Under the pieces are notes generated by a model. The model was not told where the DNA came from. It saw only the letters and a list, made by a program, of their open reading frames with translations, and did not search any database. From Bacteroidota bacterium (GTDB lineage: Bacteria > Bacteroidota > Bacteroidia > UKL13-3): a stretch of 33,128 nucleotides of DNA. Location: positions 1-33,128 of the forward strand of contig CANNQU010000038.1 of assembly GCA_947507965.1 (NCBI GenBank), in the 5' to 3' direction. Below are positions 86 to 13,178 of the stretch, piece by piece; position 1 is the stretch's first letter; every line of letters starts with the position of its first letter. A program made the position numbers and the translations under genes.

Positions 86-118
86 TTTGTTAAGTCTGCA
101 TTAAAAGGCTTATATTTG
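86..118 (+). promoter_or_regulatory. Bacteroidota-type promoter of the phase-variable surface operon
   Basis: TTTG at 86-89 and TATATTTG at 111-118 are separated by 21 bases. This fits the -33/-7 pattern TTTG, about 20 bases, TAnnTTTG recognised by the primary sigma factor of Bacteroidota. Transcription would begin near 125, leaving a leader of under 20 bases before the ATG at 142. The position supports 142 as the intended start codon. Confidence 0.65.
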
Positions 119-141: not shown

Positions 142-2435
142 ATGAAAAACTTCTCTTCTCTTCTCTTCTCTTCTCTTCTCTTCTCTTCTCTTCTCTTAAT
201 GTTTTCTCCCAGGATGTAACCTTTGGTTATCAAAACTCAGTGGCCACCATTTCAACAAACGGTACATATAACAGCATAACGCTTAGTGCAGGGGCCTATG
301 TCGTTATCAGTAATTGTACCATCAAGCTCAAACCAGGTGGAACAATAACGGTGAATGCCAAGTCCGTTCTAAAAATAATTAATAGTACCATCACGCGAGA
401 GGCTACTTCAGGTTCAACTACATGGAATGGTATAAATATAGTTGGCAATCCGAATTACGATCAAATTACTGAAACTATAGATGATTATGAGTTTTTTTAT
501 GGCCATAATACCTACAACGCAATGCAGCATGGGTCGGTATGGGTCGATCATAGCACCATTTCCTATGCTGATAAAGCAATCGCATCATCAGGTGGAACAG
601 GTGGAGGATATTGTTTTGTAGATCATGGAACTTTTCGAGACAACGACTTTTCAATTTATCTTACAAATTACGCATCGCATGCGCAGAATTCAAGGATTTA
701 TAGTTGTACATTCGACAATCCACATAGATTATCAGGTTACCAAAGTGGCATATACTATGCCGCAATTTACCTATCAAATGCCTCAAATATTAGTATTAGG
801 GTAGAAAGCTGTTCCTTTGGCAATACGGGTATAATGAGCAGTCTGATTGGTATTAGGGCAACAGGGACTTATATTAATATTTTAGATTGTTATTTTAATA
901 GCTTAAATGTTGGCTTTCTTTTAGAAAAAGGGCTCTATTACACCGGGGCTCTATTAAGTGGAGCATTCTTCGAAAAATGCGATAGAGGCGCTGTAGCACT
1001 TGGAGCTGATGATTTTTATGTTACCTACTCAAGTTTTGATATTAATAAAGAAATAAAATTTGGCACTTTTAGTAAAATTAGCCCAGCTGCATTACCTATA
1101 GGACTTTTTATTGCCGGCACTCATAACTATTTTGTCACTAATTCGTTTTTTGAAAAAATCATTGGGCCGCTTACCGGCAATCAACTTAGCTACGGCCTTG
1201 TTGTGGATGGGAATTCAGAATCTGGGTACAATTTGGTTGCGAAAAACACATTTACTACGATAGATATCGGTTTTCAAACCCAAAATGAGAATTCAAGTAC
1301 CTTTCTACAGTGCAATAATTTCTCCTATAGAACTTTTAATTATGACATAACAATTCCATCAGGCAGCTTACGTCGTCACGATGGTTGTATTAGCACATCG
1401 GTTTTTGATGGAATGCCGGGAAATACATTTAGTTCGAATCCAATACATGGTGATAGAAATATTAAAATAAATTCTACTAAATATTCCCCAATTAATAAAT
1501 TCTTGTATAGTTATTATGATAATAATCAGAAGCCCAACTACTTTACTGTTTCAAAAGTTGCCACAATTAAATGCTATCTCGCTAGTTCCTGTGAAACAGT
1601 AGCTAGTTTACTAGGATTTAACAAGAGTGCTTCTGATTATATCGAAGCGAATAGAATAGTCGATTCTCTGAGAACTGCTAATGCGGATACCAACGAAATT
1701 GAGGCCGCCGAGTTTTTTAGAGGTTGTTTTTTAAGTCAGATGGTATTTACACTCTCCAATACTGACCAATACGATTCCGCTATAAATATATTGAAAAACG
1801 ATACGTCCCTAGCGAGTAGCTATCATAAATTGAAATTGTATTTAAATAAAGGTAACTATACCAGTGCGCAATCGATACTTGATAACCTTACCAACACAAG
1901 CAACGAAGCACTCGCCTTTAAGGAACTTTATAATATTTTAATTCCGGTATATCATAACTATTCGTTTGAAGCTCTCGATAGTATCCGTTCGCAAATTGAT
2001 TCTATTGCCGCCGATTCCGGATTTATTGGAAAACAAGCCCAATATTTAGTAAATTATATTGATGAAACAAATGCAATTCTTGATAGTAATGAGCAATTTG
2101 TGCCTCTCTATACCGACTTTATTCTGCCTGTTGACAGTACTGATGCTATTGATACTACCGTGAACAACTACTTGGTTACGGTATATCCAAATCCATTTGT
2201 CGATGATTTGAATGCCGATTTTACAAATAATTCAGGTACTACAGGGGTTTTCACATTGAAACTTTATGATTCCTATGCCGGGCTTATTGGTGAGAATCAA
2301 ATTTCAATAAATAATACTGAAACACAAACGTTTCATTTAAATACCTCCGACTTGGAATGGGGCTTTTACTATTTGCAAATTATGGATAGTAGTGCTGCTG
2401 TTATCACCGCTCGCATAATATACAAAGCGCCATGA
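142..2435 (+). CDS. Phase-variable secreted beta-helix protein with T9SS sorting domain (frame off in this sequence)
   Basis: The body is open from about 135 to 2435, but its only plausible start, ATG at 142, is in another frame because of the TTCTC repeat count. Removing one unit gives a signal peptide starting MKNFSS and ending LNVFSQ, typical for Bacteroidota, running straight into DVTFGYQNS. The N-terminal half (codons after 240, about residues 10-400) has the regular short strands of a right-handed beta-helix, with NCT/NST turns and WNGI. Residues about 475-610 look helical and TPR-like. The last 85 residues are a T9SS type A sorting domain with VYPNP, so the product should be exported and attached at the cell surface. 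A GTG at 240 could be called as a start but would leave no signal peptide. The stop overlaps the next gene's start by four bases (ATGA). Substrate or ligand is unknown. An indel in the assembly is the main alternative explanation of the broken frame. Confidence 0.85.
150..197 (+). repeat. TTCTC pentanucleotide microsatellite inside the signal-peptide coding sequence
   Basis: Nine perfect TTCTC units occupy 151-195, followed by a partial TT; period-5 identity runs from 150 to 197. The tract begins three codons after the ATG at 142 and encodes a repeating F-S-S-L-L pattern, which is a usable hydrophobic signal-peptide core. Because five is not a multiple of three, each unit gained or lost changes the reading frame. 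With nine units the frame from 142 reaches TAA at 217-219; with eight or eleven it joins the 731-codon body downstream. Confidence 0.95.
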
Positions 2436-4054
2436 GAATCCTAATTTTCATTTGTTTGCTTTCCTCGTTTTGGAGCCATGGACAAAACTATTGGCCAAAA
2501 AACTATAGTCAGCCGAAACTCGGGTTATATGACCTAATTGAAGATGATGATGGGGGCTATTTGGCCTTGACAACGAAGAATAACGATGGCAATTCCTATT
2601 TATTGAAATTCGATGCCAACGCAAATCTATTATGGAAGAAGTGCTTGGCATTTAAAGTAAAACCAGAGTTATGGGCCACCCATTTCATAAAAGATAAATT
2701 TAAAAACCTTTATATTATCGGATCTTCATGGGATACGGATACCCTTGATGGAGATGCGTTTATTTTAAAACTGGATAGTTGCTATAATAAAGTGAAATGT
2801 GTTGTTTATACCGATACCGTTTATAAGTATCAACAATATCTTTACCACAATATTGATTTTAGCGACTCTTTATTTTTTATGGCTGGGTGGGGGTTTAATA
2901 GATATTCCAATCAGTTTATTGTGGTGAATAAATCTGACTTGCTTCCAAAAAAGGCATTTAATACACAAGCCAATTTCGAAAGCAGTGATTGCTTCAATGA
3001 TTCTAGTGCAGTTTATCTTCCTGCAGATGATTATTTCTATCTAAAGGGTGGTGATACTACTGTTGGAGCCTTAAGAACCTCCATACTTAAATTAGACAAA
3101 AACTCTGGGCAAGAAATATTATATAAATTTTTAGGGTTCGATGAAAATCTGTTGTCAATAGGAATGGTACTTTTTAAAAACAAACGCAATAATTTAAACG
3201 TTTTTGCGCTTTTTAGAGCAATCGTTGATAATTACAGCTATAAAGAGTCTAGTCCAATTCTATTCGAATGTGATACAAATTTAAATCTTATAAAATATCA
3301 GATTTATAATGATTGGCAAATTGACCAAACCTTTGATAATGTAGTTAAATTGAACGATAGTACCTATATATTAGCAATGCTTTATAGAGAATTAGCTACA
3401 CCTCCAACCTCATTAGGGAAAATCAAACTATACAAAATGAACGAATCTGGTAAATTATTAGACTCGTTTTACCTGAAAAACTTAGGACATACTTTTTATA
3501 CCCAAGAAGGCTTTAGAATAATCCGACTAATTAAAACGTTCGATAATAAATTGATGTGCGTATTTTTAGAAAAGGATATTGATTTCAAAAACCCTAGGAT
3601 AACCTTTTTGAAATTTGATGAGAATTTCAAATTGGACACTACCGAATACCGGAACAAAAAATACGATATTAATTGCAGCGTCCTCAACGACTCTATAAAT
3701 TTGTCAGACGCTACTATCTACTATTTATCGGCCGATAGTACTTTTCCTGTTTTGGAGTTGAAAAAGCCATCGGGTATAATTCCTGTACTCGAAAAATATA
3801 GCGTTGCTTTTTACCCTAACCCAATAACTACCAGTGCCACCTTTGAGTTTGAAAATTTTAAAGCAGATGAATTAAAAATTGATCTGGTTGACTCCAAAGG
3901 TGCCTTTATCAAAGAAATTTATTTTAGTGAAAAAGTAAACCATGGTAAAAATGAAATCAAACTCAACTTTGACGCTATTGCCGGTGGGCATTATTACCTA
4001 AAGGTCTATTTAGATTCGGCCCTCAAGCATACCATAAAAATTATAAAAGAGTGA
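2432..4054 (+). CDS. Secreted protein with T9SS type A sorting domain
   Basis: A 540-residue protein that starts with a signal peptide (MRILIFICLLSSF, cleavage likely before QNYW at about residue 18). The middle, about 20-450, carries repeated blocks of the kind 'L.kfD...nl...k' with GG/GD turns, resembling WD-like or delta-60-type beta-propeller repeats; I could not assign a family firmly. Residues about 455-540 form a T9SS type A sorting domain (FYPNPITT...GGHYYLKVY...IKE). The start ATG overlaps the stop of the upstream gene (ATGA at 2432-2435), so translation is probably coupled and the gene has no separate promoter that I can see. Its expression may therefore follow the phase state of the first gene. 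Substrate unknown. Confidence 0.85.
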   Translation: MRILIFICLLSSFWSHGQNYWPKNYSQPKLGLYDLIEDDDGGYLALTTKNNDGNSYLLKFDANANLLWKKCLAFKVKPELWATHFIKDKFKNLYIIGSSWDTDTLDGDAFILKLDSCYNKVKCVVYTDTVYKYQQYLYHNIDFSDSLFFMAGWGFNRYSNQFIVVNKSDLLPKKAFNTQANFESSDCFNDSSAVYLPADDYFYLKGGDTTVGALRTSILKLDKNSGQEILYKFLGFDENLLSIGMVLFKNKRNNLNVFALFRAIVDNYSYKESSPILFECDTNLNLIKYQIYNDWQIDQTFDNVVKLNDSTYILAMLYRELATPPTSLGKIKLYKMNESGKLLDSFYLKNLGHTFYTQEGFRIIRLIKTFDNKLMCVFLEKDIDFKNPRITFLKFDENFKLDTTEYRNKKYDINCSVLNDSINLSDATIYYLSADSTFPVLELKKPSGIIPVLEKYSVAFYPNPITTSATFEFENFKADELKIDLVDSKGAFIKEIYFSEKVNHGKNEIKLNFDAIAGGHYYLKVYLDSALKHTIKIIKE

Positions 4055-4351: not shown

Positions 4352-4496
4352 GGGTATTTCCGTATTTGATGAGCTGGATTACACTTAATTTCCAATGCTG
4401 GTCAAGTAAGAACAAAGAAACCCTTGTCTCTGCCATTAATCTTAAATTGAAGTTTTTTAAGATGAAATACAATAGATCCTTCCTGCGTCAGGATGA
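4352..4496 (+). repeat. Dispersed 145-base repeat, copy 1
   Basis: This stretch aligns without gaps to 32984-33128 at the right edge of the window, in the same orientation. The segment 4384-4443 is identical over 60 bases to 33016-33075. The 3' end of the unit runs into the GATCCTTCC...CAGGATGACA core that is then repeated in tandem. There is no transposase gene and no terminal inverted repeat, so it looks like an intergenic repeat family rather than an insertion sequence. Confidence 0.9.
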
Positions 4497-4790
4497 CAAT
4501 ACAACAGGGTCAACACCTCCATTTTCTCGTCGCTTCATGAGGGGGGTGATGGTTGCTGATGAATGGCGTTTTTTCGAGATCCTTCCTTCGTCAGGATGAC
4601 AATGCAACAGGGTCAATGCATCCGGTTTCTCGTCGCTTCATGAGTGGGTTGATGGTTGATGATGAGTGGTGTTTATCGTGTTGGTTTTTGAGATCCTTCC
4701 TTTGTCAGGATGGCAGTACAACAGGGTCAATACCTCCATTCTTCCGTCGCTTCATGAGGGTGTTGATGGATAAGCAAACACCTACGACAG
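4475..4790 (+). repeat. Three tandem REP-like repeats
   Basis: Three imperfect copies begin at 4475, 4578 and 4692 (steps of 103 and 114 bases). Each has the core GATCCTTCC, 4-6 variable bases, TCAGGATG, then AA/AGTACAACAGGGTCAA, a TCGTCGCTTCATGAG block and GTTGATGG. The core can fold on itself through ATCCT pairing with AGGAT. Short open frames here only translate the repeat (RSFLRQDD in each) and are not credible genes. The array ends about ten bases from the stop codon of recB and sits between two convergent transcription units. Confidence 0.85.
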
Positions 4791-4800
4791 TGACCTATCA

Positions 4801-7800
4801 TCAAGCAAAACAAGTGGCGAGTTGATCAATCACCCGCTTCTCCGGCTTATGAAAAAACATACCACTATTTTGGTCTTCTCTCATCCCTCTTACAAACAGA
4901 TAAATCGCTCCTCCAAAATCTCGTTCATAATCAAAACCCGGAATTCTTAAGGCGAGGTATTTACAGATAGCTACCGTGTAAATATGATATTGAAGATGGT
5001 AATTATTTTCGGCCATCGCTTCCCATACCTTCTTGCTGGAGTAGTCTTCCAGGCGGTCGCCGAGGAAATTCGACTTCCAGTCGAGTATATAATATTTCCC
5101 GTCTTTTTCAAAAAAGAGATCCATCTTGCCATTCATTATACCTTCAAGCTGTTCAAACGATTTAACATGAAAAGGCACCTCCTTCGTCGACAAGGCATCG
5201 ATTTGTTCGGCGTGAAAGGGCTTTACGATGAAGTCGAACTCCAACTCACTCAACCGTTCATTTTGCTTAACAGAAGAGAGTGTGAAAATATGGGTATTGC
5301 ATGAAAGCTTAGCATGGGTAACATGCCTCAGAAGTGTAAGCAAATGCTCGGCATGATCGCTTTTACCTTCCTTAGATAAACGTACCATTGCATTAGAAAT
5401 CACGTTGTTCCACATCCGGTTATCATAAAAATTGATGTGTTCGAAAATATAATGCAATAAATTTCCGGTGAAAGCTCCTTTCTTTAATCGCCTAAAAATA
5501 AAATCACCATAGGTGTCGAGTGGAGCACCTACCATGGACTTCGGCAACCAATCATGTTCCGGATTTAAAAAGGTATAACTCAAACGGCGCCAGTGTAGTT
5601 GAAGCAAACTAAAACCCGCTGCCTTTTGATAGACTACCGGGAAGTGCGTCCCTTTGGGGCTATAAGTATATCCTAACGGAATTTTGGGCACATCACTAAA
5701 ATCAATACCAGCAGGCAGTGCGGCTGTTAATTCGGCAACGAATGGCTTTAACGATGATTTTTTGTTGTACGCTGAATTGTTGCTATTAATATAGCATTTA
5801 TACTTCGCTCTGGTAATGGCCACGTATATTAATCGGCGGTTTTCCTGTTCCTGTTGCTCATTAAATAGTTTTATCTGGGCCGCATCCAAGAGGTTTGATT
5901 GGGCGAAAGTGTAAATACCTTCGGCATTTCTGAAACTGGAGAAATCATGCTTCGTCAGCGTCATATCTAAAAATGGAGCGATCACAATATGATATTCCAA
6001 ACCTTTGCTTTTGTGAATGGTAACGATCTTCACCGCATCCTCATCACTCTCCATTCGTTGCTCAAATTCATCACCTACCGTGGTTTGTCCTTCGGTGGCT
6101 TTCTGTAACCAATTCACCAGCTCAACCGACGTGTATCGGCTTTGTGATTGCTTTTTGTGAAGAATCTCGAGTAACTGTAACGTATTAGAAAGTCTCCGTT
6201 CTCCATTAATGGCGTCTTCCGAGAGCAATCGCGACTTCACTTGGTAATCGGTAATAAACTTCATCAACATCACATAAACGCCGCTGTTGGCCAGTGTATA
6301 TTGGTAACGCTTAAATTGTTGTAATACCCATTCTTCATCCAGATTCTCCATATCATTGATGGTAAAGCCAGTAATACCGGTGAGTAATGCTCTATTAATA
6401 TTCGACGCACTGATATCGATTACCGCACGAAGCAAGAATAAAATTTCCCTGGCTTCGGTGGTCTCCGACAATTTTGTTTCATCAATGGTGATCGCAGGAA
6501 TATGGTAGAATGCCAAATTTTCTTTAATCCTACGACCCTGCCTATTACTTCTCACCAAAATACCAATATCGGAAGGCTTCACCTCATGTGGCTCACCCTT
6601 GGTAAGAATCTTTAATGATTTATCGCTTAAAAGTTGTATCACCGTCGCAGCAACCGTATCAAAGACTTCATCATTATTCGCATCATTTAAAAATGTAATC
6701 GGCGTAACGGGTGCATTGTCCGATAAGAGGTTGCCTGATTTATTTTCATTCGGAGATTTTACCTCTTGATATTGAATAGCGTCTTTCGCCGTTCCAAAAA
6801 GAAACGTATCAAAAGTGGCAGAAGGTTTAAAAAAATGATTCTGAGCCGCTATAAATCCTTCGCTCGAACGGTAATTGGTATCCATTGTAAATCGATTCGA
6901 CACCGCATGGCCGGCCTTGATATACGTATTCAAGTCGGCCTTGCGCCAGGCGTAAATCGACTGCTTGGGATCGCCAATATAAAAAAGTAGGGTATCCTTT
7001 CCGAATAATACATCAAAAATTTCGTACTGCTTTTTATCGGTATCCTGAAATTCGTCGATAAATACCGCTTTAAATTTCTCACGTATCGCTCCGATAAGTA
7101 CTTCATTCGACTTATTCACCACCGCCTCATGCAGTTTATCAATCATATCATCGAAAGTAAGCATCGATTTATGGTCTTTTCTAAAACGAATCTCATCACC
7201 AATAACACCGATAGCCATCTGATAAATTTTATTGGTAAACAAATTTAGAATTCTATCTTTCTCTTGTTCCGCAGGTGCCACCGGTTCAAGCAGGATAAGT
7301 ATTTCGCTGAATATCTCTCGCACATATCCGGTGGTGGGTGCCGCTTCACGAATGGTTTCTAGGAGTACATCCAAATTCTCGAACAATTCAAAATATTTTT
7401 TAGCAGCGTAGGTATTCGATTGCACTTTACTTTTAAGTTCCTCTTTATGGTCTTCAATATAAACCATAGCCGACATCCAAGCTTCGGCAATGAGGTCGAG
7501 TTGAATCTGTAGTTTTTTCGCTATGATTTTCTGATTCGATAAGGTCAATAAATCCTTCTCCACGAGTTCGAGTACCAGCAGCGTCTTACCACTTAGATGG
7601 TTATTAATAATTTCAGCCAGTGCTTTACGGCTGAGTGCAGATTGGAGTAAATGCTGGAGTAATTCTTTTTCAATCATCACCACATGATTACGCCAAAACA
7701 TATTCATCTGATCTTCTTTTAATTCATTGAATGCCCCTTCATCCATGGCTTCAGCACCAAAAATTTGATCGGCTTCAAAGGAGAACTCTTTAAGGGTACG

Positions 7801-8181
7801 CTGACAAAAGCTATGAATGGTAAGCACGGAAGTTTCATCTAAAAACAGAACGGCATTTTTTAATAAACGCTCCGTTACTTCAACGCCGATTGAACGGATA
7901 GAACCGTTTATTATTCTTTGAATGGTATCATCAGCAACCTTTTTACCCATACTAGCCTGATGGGCCATTCTAACAAAGAGCCTTATCCGTGTTTCGAGTT
8001 CTGCCACAGCGGCTTTAGTAAAAGTAACCATAAGGATCTCCTGTATCGTAACTTTCTTCTCTAGTAAAAGCCGAATTACCAGTATCCCAATAGAATGCGT
8101 CTTGCCGGTGCCGGCACTCGCTTCAATGAGATTGCTGTCATGCAAGGGTACAGTTTCTGAAGAAAAGGGTATGGACGTCAT
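4801..8181 (-). CDS. recB: Exodeoxyribonuclease V subunit beta (RecB)
   Basis: An 1126-residue RecB: 3'-5' helicase and the only nuclease of the RecBCD complex, which processes double-strand DNA ends for recombination repair and degrades foreign linear DNA. Superfamily 1 motifs appear in order: Walker A ASAGTGKT at 21-28, Walker B IDEFQDTD with D376 and E377, GDPKQSIYAWR, TNYRSS, VTIHKSKGLEYHIVIAPF, and RLIYVAITRAK. The C-terminal nuclease domain has GNLLHYIFEH (equivalent of the metal-binding His), GKMDLFF, LDWKSN with D1034 and K1036, and QYHIY, so it should be catalytically active. It starts seven bases after the recC stop codon and is the last gene of the recD-recC-recB operon. Slightly shorter than the about 1180 residues of E. 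coli RecB. Confidence 0.95.
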   Translation of the reverse strand: MTSIPFSSETVPLHDSNLIEASAGTGKTHSIGILVIRLLLEKKVTIQEILMVTFTKAAVAELETRIRLFVRMAHQASMGKKVADDTIQRIINGSIRSIGVEVTERLLKNAVLFLDETSVLTIHSFCQRTLKEFSFEADQIFGAEAMDEGAFNELKEDQMNMFWRNHVVMIEKELLQHLLQSALSRKALAEIINNHLSGKTLLVLELVEKDLLTLSNQKIIAKKLQIQLDLIAEAWMSAMVYIEDHKEELKSKVQSNTYAAKKYFELFENLDVLLETIREAAPTTGYVREIFSEILILLEPVAPAEQEKDRILNLFTNKIYQMAIGVIGDEIRFRKDHKSMLTFDDMIDKLHEAVVNKSNEVLIGAIREKFKAVFIDEFQDTDKKQYEIFDVLFGKDTLLFYIGDPKQSIYAWRKADLNTYIKAGHAVSNRFTMDTNYRSSEGFIAAQNHFFKPSATFDTFLFGTAKDAIQYQEVKSPNENKSGNLLSDNAPVTPITFLNDANNDEVFDTVAATVIQLLSDKSLKILTKGEPHEVKPSDIGILVRSNRQGRRIKENLAFYHIPAITIDETKLSETTEAREILFLLRAVIDISASNINRALLTGITGFTINDMENLDEEWVLQQFKRYQYTLANSGVYVMLMKFITDYQVKSRLLSEDAINGERRLSNTLQLLEILHKKQSQSRYTSVELVNWLQKATEGQTTVGDEFEQRMESDEDAVKIVTIHKSKGLEYHIVIAPFLDMTLTKHDFSSFRNAEGIYTFAQSNLLDAAQIKLFNEQQEQENRRLIYVAITRAKYKCYINSNNSAYNKKSSLKPFVAELTAALPAGIDFSDVPKIPLGYTYSPKGTHFPVVYQKAAGFSLLQLHWRRLSYTFLNPEHDWLPKSMVGAPLDTYGDFIFRRLKKGAFTGNLLHYIFEHINFYDNRMWNNVISNAMVRLSKEGKSDHAEHLLTLLRHVTHAKLSCNTHIFTLSSVKQNERLSELEFDFIVKPFHAEQIDALSTKEVPFHVKSFEQLEGIMNGKMDLFFEKDGKYYILDWKSNFLGDRLEDYSSKKVWEAMAENNYHLQYHIYTVAICKYLALRIPGFDYERDFGGAIYLFVRGMREDQNSGMFFHKPEKRVIDQLATCFA

Positions 8182-8187
8182 GATTGG

Positions 8188-11100
8188 TTATTTTATTATT
8201 TTAGGCATCAATTCCAGAATCGGGTTATATATATTATCGGTATTCATTTTTATCATTTCAAAATTATCTTCTTTAAAGAAATTATTTTGATGGGCTTTAT
8301 TCATATAGGCATCATCGAAGACATGGTTATTTTGATTTGATTGCATCTTTTCGATCTCAGCAACAAAAACCAACCCATCATCCTTAAATAATTTGGTGCC
8401 CAATGAAGGCGAAAACAAGAAGGGCTCATGAAACCCCTTTTTAAAGTTAACCAACCATGCCGTGAGCCGTTCATTAGCATCCTGCTTGCTTATCGTTCCA
8501 GCAACCATATTAAAAAGACTACCCGATTTGAACTCCTTAAAATAGAAATCCAAAACTTCGCCTGCAGCGGTGGCGATCAAATAACTAAGATAGCCGTCGA
8601 TAACGTATTTATGATACAGATTCGACTCGGAATAACAAACCATTCGGTTATTATAAATATTTCCGATATTCCCAATAAGCACGCTATCTCCTAATGGTAA
8701 CCTGATATCCATGTTTTTAGGATTTGCCCCTAAGGTGATTTCTTTTAAACGCTCTCCTTTTAACTTAATTTCGTCGACCAGTTTCTCAAAAGCAATACGA
8801 CCACTGTTTTTTAATGGTAACTTACCATTTAATCGTTGGCGATTATAGTAAGCTTCGTAATCGGCATCCTCCAAGTTCAAGAGGTCGTTTTTAATTTGCC
8901 AACTACTTAAAAAATCGAGTTCAAACACTTCGGTGTCGGGTAGTAAAATCTCCTCCTCACGATAATAAATACCCAACCCTTTATTAAAATACCATTGGAT
9001 AGGAGCTCTATAAAACTTCAACAAATCGCTCACCGAAATTTCATCGAAACAAAAGGCTACCGGCTCTTTCTTACCCGATGGCATTACTTCGGGCGCCTTA
9101 TATTTATCATCACTTAAATAGGAATACAACCCACTACCATTAAAATATTTCTGACTAAACCCGTGCAAAGGATGAACGGTGACCAGGTTCTCTTGGAGTA
9201 TTTCATGGGTACCCGATTCCTGGCGAATGATGTACTCGATGAGTTCATCTACCATCGACGAAGGTGGAACTTTTGATGCATCTTTAGCACTGCTCCCGAT
9301 ATAACTCAGATAAAAATATTGTTCTGCTGAGAGCAAGGTTTCGAGAAACAAATGTTTATCGTTGTCTTTTACGTTTCTATCGCCTTTCCTTTTTTCCTTT
9401 TCGAGTAAACTAAAACTAATTTTATTCTCTTTACGAGGAAACTTATCGAAGCTCATCCCCAACATAGCCACCACCTTGAAAGGAATGCTGCGCATGGGTA
9501 TCAGAGAACAAAAGGTAATACCGGCACCGGCAAACGAAAGGGTTTTGGTCTCGGTATTTAAAATTTCTAAAAAGCTATGCCTGAACACCTCAAAGGAAAT
9601 GGCATCGGTACTCACATGTTCAAGCAAGGTAAGTTTTTCCAGATAGGCAATCAGCCGATGGTAATCTTCATCTTCTTTCTCACCCGACTCAAAAACTAAA
9701 CTTTCCACTAACTCTTGCAAATAAACACCCCAATCTCCTATACTTCTGGGTTGATTTCTTCTCTTTACGAAATCTTCGAGCACCTGGAACATATTCCAAA
9801 ATCGAATCAGCTCCAACGAATCGGCACCTTCGAAATGATCAAGCGGAATGAGCGTATCACCATCTAATGTTACTACAGGCTCACCACTAATGCATATACC
9901 ATATAGAATGCGCTTAAAACCGTATTGCCAACTTACTAGCCGGGTTTCATTTTCTACTGAACCACGATCTCCAAAACGAATGCTGGCGGCATCCACTGCT
10001 TTGCGTATCAACTCGGTGTCGCTAATGGAGAAGCGCTCACGTATATAGGTCGACTCTAATAATTCTAAAACTTCTTCCGCCTTAAAACCATCCGACTGCA
10101 AATTGAGAATCATTTCAATACTGCTAAAGATAGAATTACCTACGGTAATACGTTCATCGGCAATAGTATAAGGAAAATGGTATGGTGCGTTATCAAACAC
10201 GGCACGGATATAGGGAGCGTATTGATCAATATCACTTACCATCACCACGATGTCGCGAGGAGAAAGCAAGGAGTTTCGTTGATCGACCCGATGAACAAGA
10301 TAATTATACAATACCTCTACCTCCCTTACCAAGGTAAAACAACTGTTGATGGTAATAGAACCATCGGAAATATCATCGATGCTAATTTTGTTCCGTTCAT
10401 CGGCATTGGCATTAAAATAAATATCGTGCTGAATCTTTTGCAATAAGGTATTCGGCGCCGTTGGTTCTTCAGCAAGACCATCATTATATGAATTAATAAA
10501 AGCATCTTCTTCAAACAGTAACGAGAAACTATCTTTGATAATATGGCCCCAACTTTGAAGTAACTCATTCCCTTCCGTTGAAAATGGGGTGGGCAATAAT
10601 TTCCTTTTTGATTTTTGGATGATACGTGCAATTTCTTTTTCAGATTTGTCTTCTAGCCAATACGATGTGGGGGCCGGGTTAAGAAGGTAGAAATTGATAT
10701 GAATATGCTTTGACAACGCATAAAACAAATGCAAATAAAATGGCGTGATAACCGCGATTCCGAAGAAATGAAGATGCGAAAGTTTGCTTTTTAATATTTT
10801 TACCTTTTCTTCATTTCCCAGAAAGTCAATAACAGCTCGAATAGCATCGGTCTTATCGAACATTTTGTTTTTTGCCTGTTGGTAAAGTTTAACCCATAAG
10901 TATTGTTGCCAATCGTTCGTTAGATCGGCCAAATCGGTTTTCCCCCAAGAAACCATGAGGTCGGGGCGATACACTTGATACTGATCAAATAAGTCGGCAA
11001 CCTTGGTGGCCAGTGCAATACGCTTTATATCCTGATGATGGTAATAACCATAGATTGATGGAAAACGACTCGTAAAATCGTTCTCATTTAAAAAATGAAA

Positions 11101-11379
11101 AAGGTTCCACTTTACAAAATCCGAACTCATCATGGGCTTATCAAACCCACCAAGCCAACGATAAATCATAGAAACGACATCGTTAGGCTTTACAAATGCA
11201 CAATTGGCCGTGATACCCAACGATTCGGCTAAGGTAATTTTAAGCCAATTGTTCATCCCATCGGTTTGCGTAACCAGATGCTGTTGATCGAAAACACCTA
11301 ACTTGTTTTCACGAAGATCGATAGCCAGTTGATTGGCTAGTTTCGAAAGTTGGTTCGAGACCAATAGTTGAATGCCCAT
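8188..11379 (-). CDS. recC: Exodeoxyribonuclease V subunit gamma (RecC)
   Basis: A 1063-residue RecC, the subunit that splits the DNA strands and, in the E. coli complex, scans for Chi. The N-terminus has the family pattern of a degenerate helicase domain: VTQTDGMNNWLKITLAESLG followed by ITANCAFVKPNDVV, comparable to the 'GMxxWL...LA...GIxAN' signature of RecC. Later blocks such as ITFCSLIPMRSIPFKVVAMLGM and FPRK are also typical. The helicase motifs are degenerate, as expected. It lies five bases from recD upstream and seven from recB downstream, so the three are one transcription unit. Whether this complex recognises a Chi site, and which, cannot be read from the sequence. Confidence 0.93.
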   Translation of the reverse strand: MGIQLLVSNQLSKLANQLAIDLRENKLGVFDQQHLVTQTDGMNNWLKITLAESLGITANCAFVKPNDVVSMIYRWLGGFDKPMMSSDFVKWNLFHFLNENDFTSRFPSIYGYYHHQDIKRIALATKVADLFDQYQVYRPDLMVSWGKTDLADLTNDWQQYLWVKLYQQAKNKMFDKTDAIRAVIDFLGNEEKVKILKSKLSHLHFFGIAVITPFYLHLFYALSKHIHINFYLLNPAPTSYWLEDKSEKEIARIIQKSKRKLLPTPFSTEGNELLQSWGHIIKDSFSLLFEEDAFINSYNDGLAEEPTAPNTLLQKIQHDIYFNANADERNKISIDDISDGSITINSCFTLVREVEVLYNYLVHRVDQRNSLLSPRDIVVMVSDIDQYAPYIRAVFDNAPYHFPYTIADERITVGNSIFSSIEMILNLQSDGFKAEEVLELLESTYIRERFSISDTELIRKAVDAASIRFGDRGSVENETRLVSWQYGFKRILYGICISGEPVVTLDGDTLIPLDHFEGADSLELIRFWNMFQVLEDFVKRRNQPRSIGDWGVYLQELVESLVFESGEKEDEDYHRLIAYLEKLTLLEHVSTDAISFEVFRHSFLEILNTETKTLSFAGAGITFCSLIPMRSIPFKVVAMLGMSFDKFPRKENKISFSLLEKEKRKGDRNVKDNDKHLFLETLLSAEQYFYLSYIGSSAKDASKVPPSSMVDELIEYIIRQESGTHEILQENLVTVHPLHGFSQKYFNGSGLYSYLSDDKYKAPEVMPSGKKEPVAFCFDEISVSDLLKFYRAPIQWYFNKGLGIYYREEEILLPDTEVFELDFLSSWQIKNDLLNLEDADYEAYYNRQRLNGKLPLKNSGRIAFEKLVDEIKLKGERLKEITLGANPKNMDIRLPLGDSVLIGNIGNIYNNRMVCYSESNLYHKYVIDGYLSYLIATAAGEVLDFYFKEFKSGSLFNMVAGTISKQDANERLTAWLVNFKKGFHEPFLFSPSLGTKLFKDDGLVFVAEIEKMQSNQNNHVFDDAYMNKAHQNNFFKEDNFEMIKMNTDNIYNPILELMPKIIK

Positions 11380-11384
11380 AATCT

Positions 11385-13178
11385 TTATTTTATTTCTTCA
11401 AAACGATGAATTATTCCGGAGGTCCTCTTCACCAAAGCAGCAGCAGTTTGCAGCAATAAATGAGCTGAAGCTTGCACGATTACTTTTTCTTTAGCACGGG
11501 TAACGGCAGTATATAACAGCTCGCGCGTTAGTATTTTCTCACCATATTCCTGAGGAAGAATGACGAGTACCTGATCGTATTCCGAACCCTGGCTCTTGTG
11601 CACGGTCATGGCAAAAACCGTCTCGGCATGGGCAATATAGCCGGGCATTACGGCACGTATTTCGTTATCCGAATTTTCAAACCATGCGCGTATATTACCC
11701 AAACTATCTTTACGAATAATGCCGATATCGCCATTAAACAATTTCAAGTCGGGATAATTTTTAGTGATAATGATTGGCCTGTTTTCGTAGAATTCACCGG
11801 TGGGAATGAGCAGTTTCTTTTCAAATAAATAACGCTCGATGGCGAGGTTGGTGCTATACAACCCTTGAGGCCCTTCCCTTACGGCGCATAACACCCGAAG
11901 TTGATTAAGTTTTTTAAGTGCTACGGCGATATCTTTTTCCACAATATAATCTTTATATCCATCAATAAACGATTCAAATAGTAACGTGTTCTCTATTGAT
12001 TCAACTTTTACGGTAACCTCTGTTGTGGAAGAGGCCATTTCCAACAAAGAAGGAATGTCGTTATGAATGATGGCACGACTGAACTTGCCAATACCTCCTT
12101 TACTGCTGAATCGGTGACTTTTTTGCAATTCAACCAGATGACCTGCCATAGGATGATTAATAGATTGTATGGCATCACCTTTTATTTTCCGTTCGCCATC
12201 CGGAATAAATTCATTTATAAATTCGGCAGCGATTTCATTGAAAACATTTAGCTTTTCCATGGCACGGCACAAATCACCGAATAAGCTTCCTGCTTCTACC
12301 GAAGCTAACTGGTTTTTATCGCCCAATAAAATGATACGCGTGTTGGGGCCAATGGCATCCAACAGTTTAGCAAACAAGGCGACATCAATCATAGAGGCTT
12401 CATCCACAATGATCACATCAAAAGGCAGTGGATTCAACTGATGGTGTTTAAAATTTACGGAGCCTGGAATATATTTTAGCAACCGGTGAATGGTATTGGG
12501 CGATAGGCCTTTTAATTTATTCGTGATGGCATCACTCACGGGCAATACCGCATTCTTCAACGACTCGGCCATACGCATAGCCGCTTTGCCTGTAGGAGCG
12601 GCTAAAGCCACGCTGCAATCGCTATCCATTGTAAAAAGCAGCGCAAGGATCTTGGCTACCGTTGTGGTTTTACCGGTACCAGGCCCGCCGGTGATGATAG
12701 AAAAATTATGACGTACACTTTGTATGATGGCCACCATTTGCCAATCGGTTTGTTCTTCTTTTGGCAAGCCCTGAATATCATAGGAAGCGTTGAAATTGAA
12801 TAATACGTCGCGGTGCCGTTCCAAAGAAACCTTTCGAGCCTCATCATCTTTGGCTTCCACTTTAAGTAGGCGTCCGATAGCCTCTAAAATATGCGTTTCG
12901 TACGAAAAATAACGATGAAAATACAATTTGTTTTTATGCAGTACAAAAGGTCGAATGAATGATGAATCGGTAGTAACAAACTCTGTGAGCTGGGGAAGCT
13001 GTGCAGAAGATATTGCTTTTTGAAAAGGCATTTCCATTAAATTCTCTTTCACCTCATCAGCATCAATGCAAATATTTCCATCTTGCATTCGCTTGGAGAC
13101 GAGGTAGGCATACGGTTTTATTTTCTCATCCTTAAAAAACTCGGCAAATTGATGGTGTACGTCTTTGGTATTAATCAT
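11385..13178 (-). CDS. recD: Exodeoxyribonuclease V subunit alpha (RecD)
   Basis: A 597-residue RecD, the 5'-3' helicase motor of RecBCD. Walker A is GGPGTGKTT at about 164-172, Walker B IIVDEASMID, then LLGDKNQLASVEAGSLFGDLC, KSHRFSSKGGIGKFS, VFAMTVHKSQGSEYDQV and LLYTAVTRAKEKV, giving the full superfamily 1B set. Length is close to the about 608 residues of E. coli RecD. It is the first gene of the operon, transcribed away from the WYL gene across a 198-base divergent region. In E. coli recD is last, after recB, so the order here is reversed. Confidence 0.95.
   Translation of the reverse strand: MINTKDVHHQFAEFFKDEKIKPYAYLVSKRMQDGNICIDADEVKENLMEMPFQKAISSAQLPQLTEFVTTDSSFIRPFVLHKNKLYFHRYFSYETHILEAIGRLLKVEAKDDEARKVSLERHRDVLFNFNASYDIQGLPKEEQTDWQMVAIIQSVRHNFSIITGGPGTGKTTTVAKILALLFTMDSDCSVALAAPTGKAAMRMAESLKNAVLPVSDAITNKLKGLSPNTIHRLLKYIPGSVNFKHHQLNPLPFDVIIVDEASMIDVALFAKLLDAIGPNTRIILLGDKNQLASVEAGSLFGDLCRAMEKLNVFNEIAAEFINEFIPDGERKIKGDAIQSINHPMAGHLVELQKSHRFSSKGGIGKFSRAIIHNDIPSLLEMASSTTEVTVKVESIENTLLFESFIDGYKDYIVEKDIAVALKKLNQLRVLCAVREGPQGLYSTNLAIERYLFEKKLLIPTGEFYENRPIIITKNYPDLKLFNGDIGIIRKDSLGNIRAWFENSDNEIRAVMPGYIAHAETVFAMTVHKSQGSEYDQVLVILPQEYGEKILTRELLYTAVTRAKEKVIVQASAHLLLQTAAALVKRTSGIIHRFEEIK

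Follow-up and report, generated by a model that had tools for sequence, protein, structure and literature searches.

The window analysed here is a whole contig (C38) of 33,128 nt from a draft assembly of 3.36 Mb in 147 contigs (G000). Close to its left end, with the start codon 141 bases from the contig end, an array of TTCTC units lies between an ATG and a long open frame, and a second gene overlaps the end of that frame (Table 1).

Table 1. Coordinates of the features at the array locus
Feature	Position	Strand	Basis or remark
Promoter-like TTTG-N-TATATTTG	86..118	+	Pattern match; about two such matches expected by chance in the window
Start codon (ATG) of the putatively switchable gene	142..144	+	Sequence reading; followed by AAA AAC, then the array
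(TTCTC)9 array, predicted signal-peptide core (FSSLL repeats in any frame)	151..195	+	Nine perfect units, three codons after the ATG
Stop (TAA) met from the ATG at nine units	217..219	+	After 25 codons
Body frame, comprising the predicted c-region of the signal peptide (LNVFSQ), the predicted mature protein (starting at D, 213), and the stop (2433-2435)	195..2435	+	
Predicted right-handed beta-helix domain	213..1520	+	AlphaFold model; mean pLDDT 62.5; five sequences in the alignment
C-terminal sorting domain of the type IX secretion system (T9SS), PF18962	2181..2417	+	E 1.8e-7; 31.8 bits, cut-off 27
Downstream protein with PF18962 tail	2432..4054	+	ATG overlaps the body stop (ATGA)

Reading frames and encoded protein

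A preliminary description of this DNA had placed nine TTCTC units three codons after the ATG, had let the ATG frame end early while the body continues in another frame, and had proposed that loss of one unit or gain of two joins start and body. The unit count agrees with the sequence and with TRF (positions 150-197, period 5, 100% matches), and the early stop is found 21 bases past the end of the array. Frame arithmetic confirms the third point: only one copy number in three puts start and body into the same frame, so that the number of units decides. At nine units they are out of frame, and the sequenced state is OFF. The description also gave the body 731 codons. An open reading frame of this length is present in a frame other than that of the ATG, but the figure is counted from an internal GTG at 240, and the body begins at the array, with 746 stop-free codons from 195. 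The nearest stop on the upstream side of the body frame is at 132-134, and from there to GTG 240 the frame contains no ATG, GTG, or TTG.

The longest period-5 run in the window spans 48 bases, compared with no more than 16 in any of 200 first-order Markov simulations. A run of four units, (TTCTC)4, gave no match in dinucleotide shuffles, even when three mismatches were allowed. Two repeats were looked for in the assembly, namely (TTCTC)4 and (CTTTT)4; the former gave six overlapping matches in 3.36 Mb, all at the array described here, which is the sole array of that unit.

For any repeated 5-mer, the three reading frames encode rotations of a single pentapeptide, as was checked in all 204 classes. 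TTCTC yields FSSLL, with a mean hydropathy of 1.76 (rank 19 of 204), and none of the three frames meets a stop within the array. Its complement encodes a KRREE-type peptide, which has the lowest hydropathy of the 156 stop-free classes; the repeat can therefore form a signal core in one orientation only, but in any frame. Since five is not a multiple of three, each in-frame count keeps the hydrophobic core and differs only in length.

Homologues of the body protein are found in two congeneric genomes (G001 and G003) at 44-45% identity, whereas two further congeners (G002 and G004) gave no match to it. Both homologues carry an ordinary in-frame signal peptide without an array, that of G001 being MKKFLLTLPLFLLFFLNNNVKA. 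Signal peptides were assigned by alignment of the homologues and by eye. The predicted Sec signal peptide encoded at the 5' end of the window gene is in frame in the homologues, whereas in the assembly, with nine units, it does not share the frame of the body. The alignment runs across the cleavage region (NVFSQ-DVTFGYQN in the window, NVKAA-DITFTYSS in the homologue), and the residues upstream of GTG 240 align as well, so that the conserved mature N-terminus includes them. As judged from this alignment, the body frame starts at the array, and the GTG start is an artefact that the off state produces. The copies of the two congeners differ by a dN of 0.019 and a dS of 0.133, which indicates purifying selection.

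The preliminary description had also put a consensus promoter directly upstream. The motif at 86-118 does fit the Bacteroidota-type -33/-7 promoter consensus, and TATATTTG is likewise located 5' of the start codon in both congeneric homologues; at the chance level given in Table 1, the motif is weak on its own, and it was left out of the evidence. A 47-base element at 11-57, just 5' of the array gene, has a second copy with 98% identity elsewhere in the genome (C16, 31110-31156).

The product is probably a surface protein exported by the T9SS, to judge from its sorting domain and from the genome. A second profile of this kind, TIGR04183, scored 20.9 on the body protein, slightly below its cut-off of 23. 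SprA was the part of the T9SS translocon that was searched for, and SprA_N was found with 543.4 bits on another contig of the assembly (C7) and in none of 14 control genomes. A Pfam scan of the body at E 0.01 gave PF18962 alone, with no match to the outer-membrane beta-barrel of Neisseria Opa. The AlphaFold model predicts an N-terminal right-handed beta-helix, a helical middle, and a beta-rich end. With VIA-align, residues 1-442 of the model were superimposed on AlgG (Z 29.2, rmsd 3.4, 303 aligned) and on the Sf6 tailspike (Z 28.3, rmsd 3.2, 324 aligned). A predicted fold in common with these two proteins says nothing on function. Foldseek against the PDB returned no convincing whole-chain match, its top rows being spliceosomal helicases with a TM of about 0.1.

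Because the ATG of the downstream gene overlaps the body stop, translation of the two genes is probably coupled, and the off state may also lower expression of the downstream gene. Both congeners have the same ATGA overlap, with a following gene that is weakly similar (22/71 and 20/72 residues).

Arrays in other genomes

The device is rare per genome. An unanchored search for (TTCTC)4 in 97 relatives found three genomes with arrays, namely the window genome, G027 (four units), and G070 (six units). In the last two, the array lies in the signal peptide of another gene and is out of frame with the body. The gene of G027 encodes S74-chaperone and T9SS domains, and the body of G070 is broken off after about 40 codons, which looks like decay and may be so. 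Among 395 genomes of the class, (TTCTC)4 occurred in two, the window genome and G219. No (CTTTT)4 was found in 64 genomes of the family to which the window belongs. In the Phaeodactylibacter family (centre genome G454), presumably Saprospiraceae to judge from record titles, (TTCTC)4 occurred in 5 of 248 genomes, as seven distinct arrays.

Homologous genes carry different numbers of units: 7 and 5 in a pair with 141/190 identical residues (74%), 6 and 7 in a pair with 294/325 (90%), and 4 and 6 in a pair with 31/38. One Phaeodactylibacter gene has CTTTT in place of the TTCTC of its homologue, with 328/490 residues identical. In G219, one family was followed over 30 loci (L216-L245). The NVGIG-type motif is missing from its expected position in 11 of these, which were set aside; 6 of the 19 readable loci carry 2, 4, 4, 8, 11, and 14 units between similar flanks, and the other 13 carry none.

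G219 itself is a genome of 2.1 Mb in the class Bacteroidia, with 36 matches of this family of secreted proteins (AQNVGIG...), three of which share a single open reading frame. Four of its six array-bearing loci also have (CA)11-20 upstream. At L216, the same open frame also runs through (CA)20, which there encodes TH repeats, and two arrays may thus be stacked in one leader. In one genome of Candidatus Endomicrobiellum incisitermitis, three loci (L063, L084, and L103) have 14, 16, and 21 TTCTC units following closely similar leaders; the bodies of the first two are related (90/152 residues), and that of L103 extends past the sequence read.

An ATG-anchored scan for TTCTC in 84,980 species gave 113 stretches, 80 of which are given as loci. 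Leaving aside 19 with fewer than 400 bases on one side, 34 of the 61 assessable loci were gene 5' ends by a mechanical test, compared with 400 of 3465 other ATGA sites taken from these loci as controls. The anchor biases the scan towards gene starts; anchored figures are therefore read against the ATGA control, and the unanchored test is preferred. In that test, ten TTCTC arrays were assessed, i.e., the seven of the Phaeodactylibacter family and three from the relatives. Nine passed in the sense direction and none in the antisense direction, and without the array of the window and that of the centre genome 7 of 8 passed in sense. The failure of L033 is due to its body stopping after about 40 codons. 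Random positions, drawn in loci of at least 2500 bases, passed in 477 of 13280 cases (3.6%). The unanchored sample is not an independent one: G454 was picked for its anchored hit, arrays in G443, G444, G449, and G454 were known before and that in G631 is new, and L173 and L181 are relatives in one genome, so that binomial P values overstate independence. The arrays of G219 were kept outside the count of ten because they belong to one gene family with an unclear start codon; among the matches listed out of 46 for (TTCTC)4 in this genome, two ATGs lie within 34 bases of an array, and both meet a stop first.

In the same 248 genomes, (CTTTT)4 matched nine. Of 14 CTTTT arrays read, one of which (L214) is cut by a contig end, 7 passed the test in sense and none in antisense; for G528, the arrays read come from the 13 forward matches listed out of 20, and at least one further array is present there. 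For the two units together, antisense passes were 0/24. Half of the CTTTT arrays fail, and some arrays are thus simply tolerated repeats. Several CTTTT arrays of the Phaeodactylibacter family (L192, L207, L196-L199, and L213) occupy leaders that resemble signal peptides; part of them precede lipobox-like sequences, and both in-frame and out-of-frame cases occur.

Of 43 survey loci that passed the test, a few of them doubtful, 30 are off, 7 are on, and 6 are ambiguous. Judged by eye, the doubtful ones are L045, L055, L097, L098, and L120, some with an antisense open reading frame; L073 is masked. The share in the on state among the loci called (7 of 37) is somewhat under one third (P 0.04). Most survey bodies extend for at least 100 codons while out of frame. 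In 33 loci picked by hand, 32 of them from the 80 and the other being L032, most bodies start with type I or lipobox cleavage regions such as ASAQ, VHAQ, MAQ, IIGC, TTSC, and FASC, as assigned by eye and with a simple pattern. Pfam was applied to 20 of these 33 bodies, and four scored over the cut-off (L032, L047, L069, and L124); the matches include a C10 peptidase, a C39 peptidase, and the S74/T9SS protein of G027. Record titles place the loci in Bacteroidota, Spirochaetes, Endomicrobia, Planctomycetota, Verrucomicrobia, and others, in addition to Neisseria opa. L124, from Alistipes, combines a seven-unit array and a lipoprotein-like leader with a marginal aerolysin-family match (24.8 bits, cut-off 24.3).

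Proposed switch and its alternatives

Very likely, the locus is a contingency (phase-variable) locus, i.e., an Opa-like on/off switch that acts on the translation of a T9SS surface protein. In the proposed mechanism, (TTCTC)n would serve as the hydrophobic core in the signal peptide of a T9SS cargo, and slipped-strand mispairing would alter n. With start and body in frame, a full signal peptide (MKN, FSSLL repeats, and LNVFSQ) would lead the protein to Sec and then to the T9SS. Out of frame, translation would end soon past the array and no protein would be exported. The overlapping downstream gene may switch together with the array gene.

Several claims of the preliminary description bear on this mechanism. 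Its reading of a signal peptide is supported by the two congeners, in which an ordinary signal peptide occupies the corresponding position and the mature N-terminus is conserved, and its reading of a surface protein by the sorting domain on the body and by SprA in the genome. It had also expected in-frame counts to alter the length of the signal peptide, in line with a pentapeptide that is the same in every frame and a core that changes in length alone. The form of a locus switched by slipped-strand mispairing, which it had recognized, recurs in TTCTC arrays at the 5' ends of unrelated genes, often out of frame with a body that stays open over a long stretch, and in homologues with different counts. 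Slippage and a change of copy number in this species, switching itself, and its phenotype are what we infer.

A neutral microsatellite is a rather unlikely explanation. TTCTC would then have expanded in a tolerant signal-peptide core, the changes of frame would be accidental, and the gene would be a recent pseudogene in this strain. Neutral expansion in a permissive hydrophobic core could yield much of the same picture, and the broken body of G070 and the CTTTT arrays that fail the gene-start test would fit it. So would the congeneric homologues, which lack the array and thus make it recent or dispensable. However, the window body is open over its whole length from the array, arrays are found at homologous positions across species (in the pairs with 74% and 90% identity), TTCTC and CTTTT can be swapped for each other, and most bodies of the 43 survey loci stay open while out of frame.

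No less unlikely is an error of assembly or consensus, under which the true count would be in frame and the gene constitutively expressed. Repeats are error-prone in assembly, and this array lies near a contig end in a draft. On the other hand, a 48-base repeat would generally fit in an ordinary short read, and out-of-frame counts recur in many independent assemblies. Whatever the count, the array stays a slippage site. Expression independent of frame, in which ribosomal frameshifting in the array would give some full-length protein at every n and tune its level, is very improbable: the array is free of stops in each frame, and a 1989 title of Belland and colleagues reportedly links opa expression in E. 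coli to such frameshifting, but the path from the ATG meets its stop shortly after the array, which speaks weakly against it.

Beyond this translational switch at a single locus, we lean, with less confidence, towards a broader reading, in which signal peptides with pentamer arrays are a general secretion switch that was invented repeatedly across phyla, with opa as one instance of a broad class. As part of the same reading, a pentamer would be favoured because its three frames encode one pentapeptide, so that a unit such as TTCTC (FSSLL) or CTTTT (LFFSF) yields, at all in-frame counts, a hydrophobic core without stops. If this is true, the proteins that the class turns on and off are T9SS cargo, lipoproteins, and peptidases, in Bacteroidota, Spirochaetes, Endomicrobia, and others, and some leaders hold a second (CA)n array. 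The occurrence of the opa unit at the same position in unrelated secreted proteins of several phyla, largely in metagenome-assembled genomes, points to convergent evolution. A rule for finding candidates in assemblies would be to look for a pentamer whose single encoded pentapeptide is hydrophobic, as a mark of a phase-variable secreted protein. Gene callers will overlook such genes in the off state or give them a wrong start, and GTG 240 is an example of the latter.

Known systems and other features of the window

Within Neisseria, the opa switch is known in pathogens and in some commensals. TTCTC, which the preliminary description had not linked to opa, is CTCTT in another register, and in both systems the repeat lies in the signal-peptide region, with the start codon ahead of the array and frame-dependent translation, which is here read from the sequence. 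In contrast to opa, the gene of the window belongs to Bacteroidia and encodes a predicted beta-helix T9SS cargo with PF18962 as its sole Pfam match, and, unlike the opa multigene family, the genome has a single (TTCTC)4 array. The origin of the array is probably independent of Neisseria opa. As in other contingency loci with simple sequence repeats, a coding repeat near the 5' end shifts the frame; unlike in those loci, the repeat is the signal-peptide core itself, and the pentamer keeps the peptide in all three frames.

CTCTT in the opa leader peptide is described as undergoing slipped-strand mispairing, which causes phase variation with a frequency of about 1 in 1000 per cell per generation (PMC3960869). 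Like the survey loci, which are mostly off, opa genes are reported in a recent study to be in frame in very few cases simultaneously, as a rule (PMC13183285). Phase variation of surface molecules has a further parallel within Bacteroidota, since Bacteroides surface genes vary through invertible promoters (PMC10939037); the putative switch of the window differs in being a tandem repeat in the coding sequence that acts on translation. In the literature searched, largely outside subscription journals, we found no description of such arrays outside Neisseria, and no paper in which phase variation, tandem repeats, and type IX secretion occur together. Literature that names CTCTT mostly concerns Neisseria, apart from one centromere and one human-gene paper.

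Elsewhere in the window, three adjacent genes at 4801-13178 presumably correspond to recB, recC, and recD, judging by eye from their translations; to our knowledge, these genes are uncommon in Bacteroidota. An intergenic tandem repeat with a unit of about 103 bp lies at 4474-4769. The start of this unit recurs at the right contig end (33106-33128), which may be why the contig ends there.
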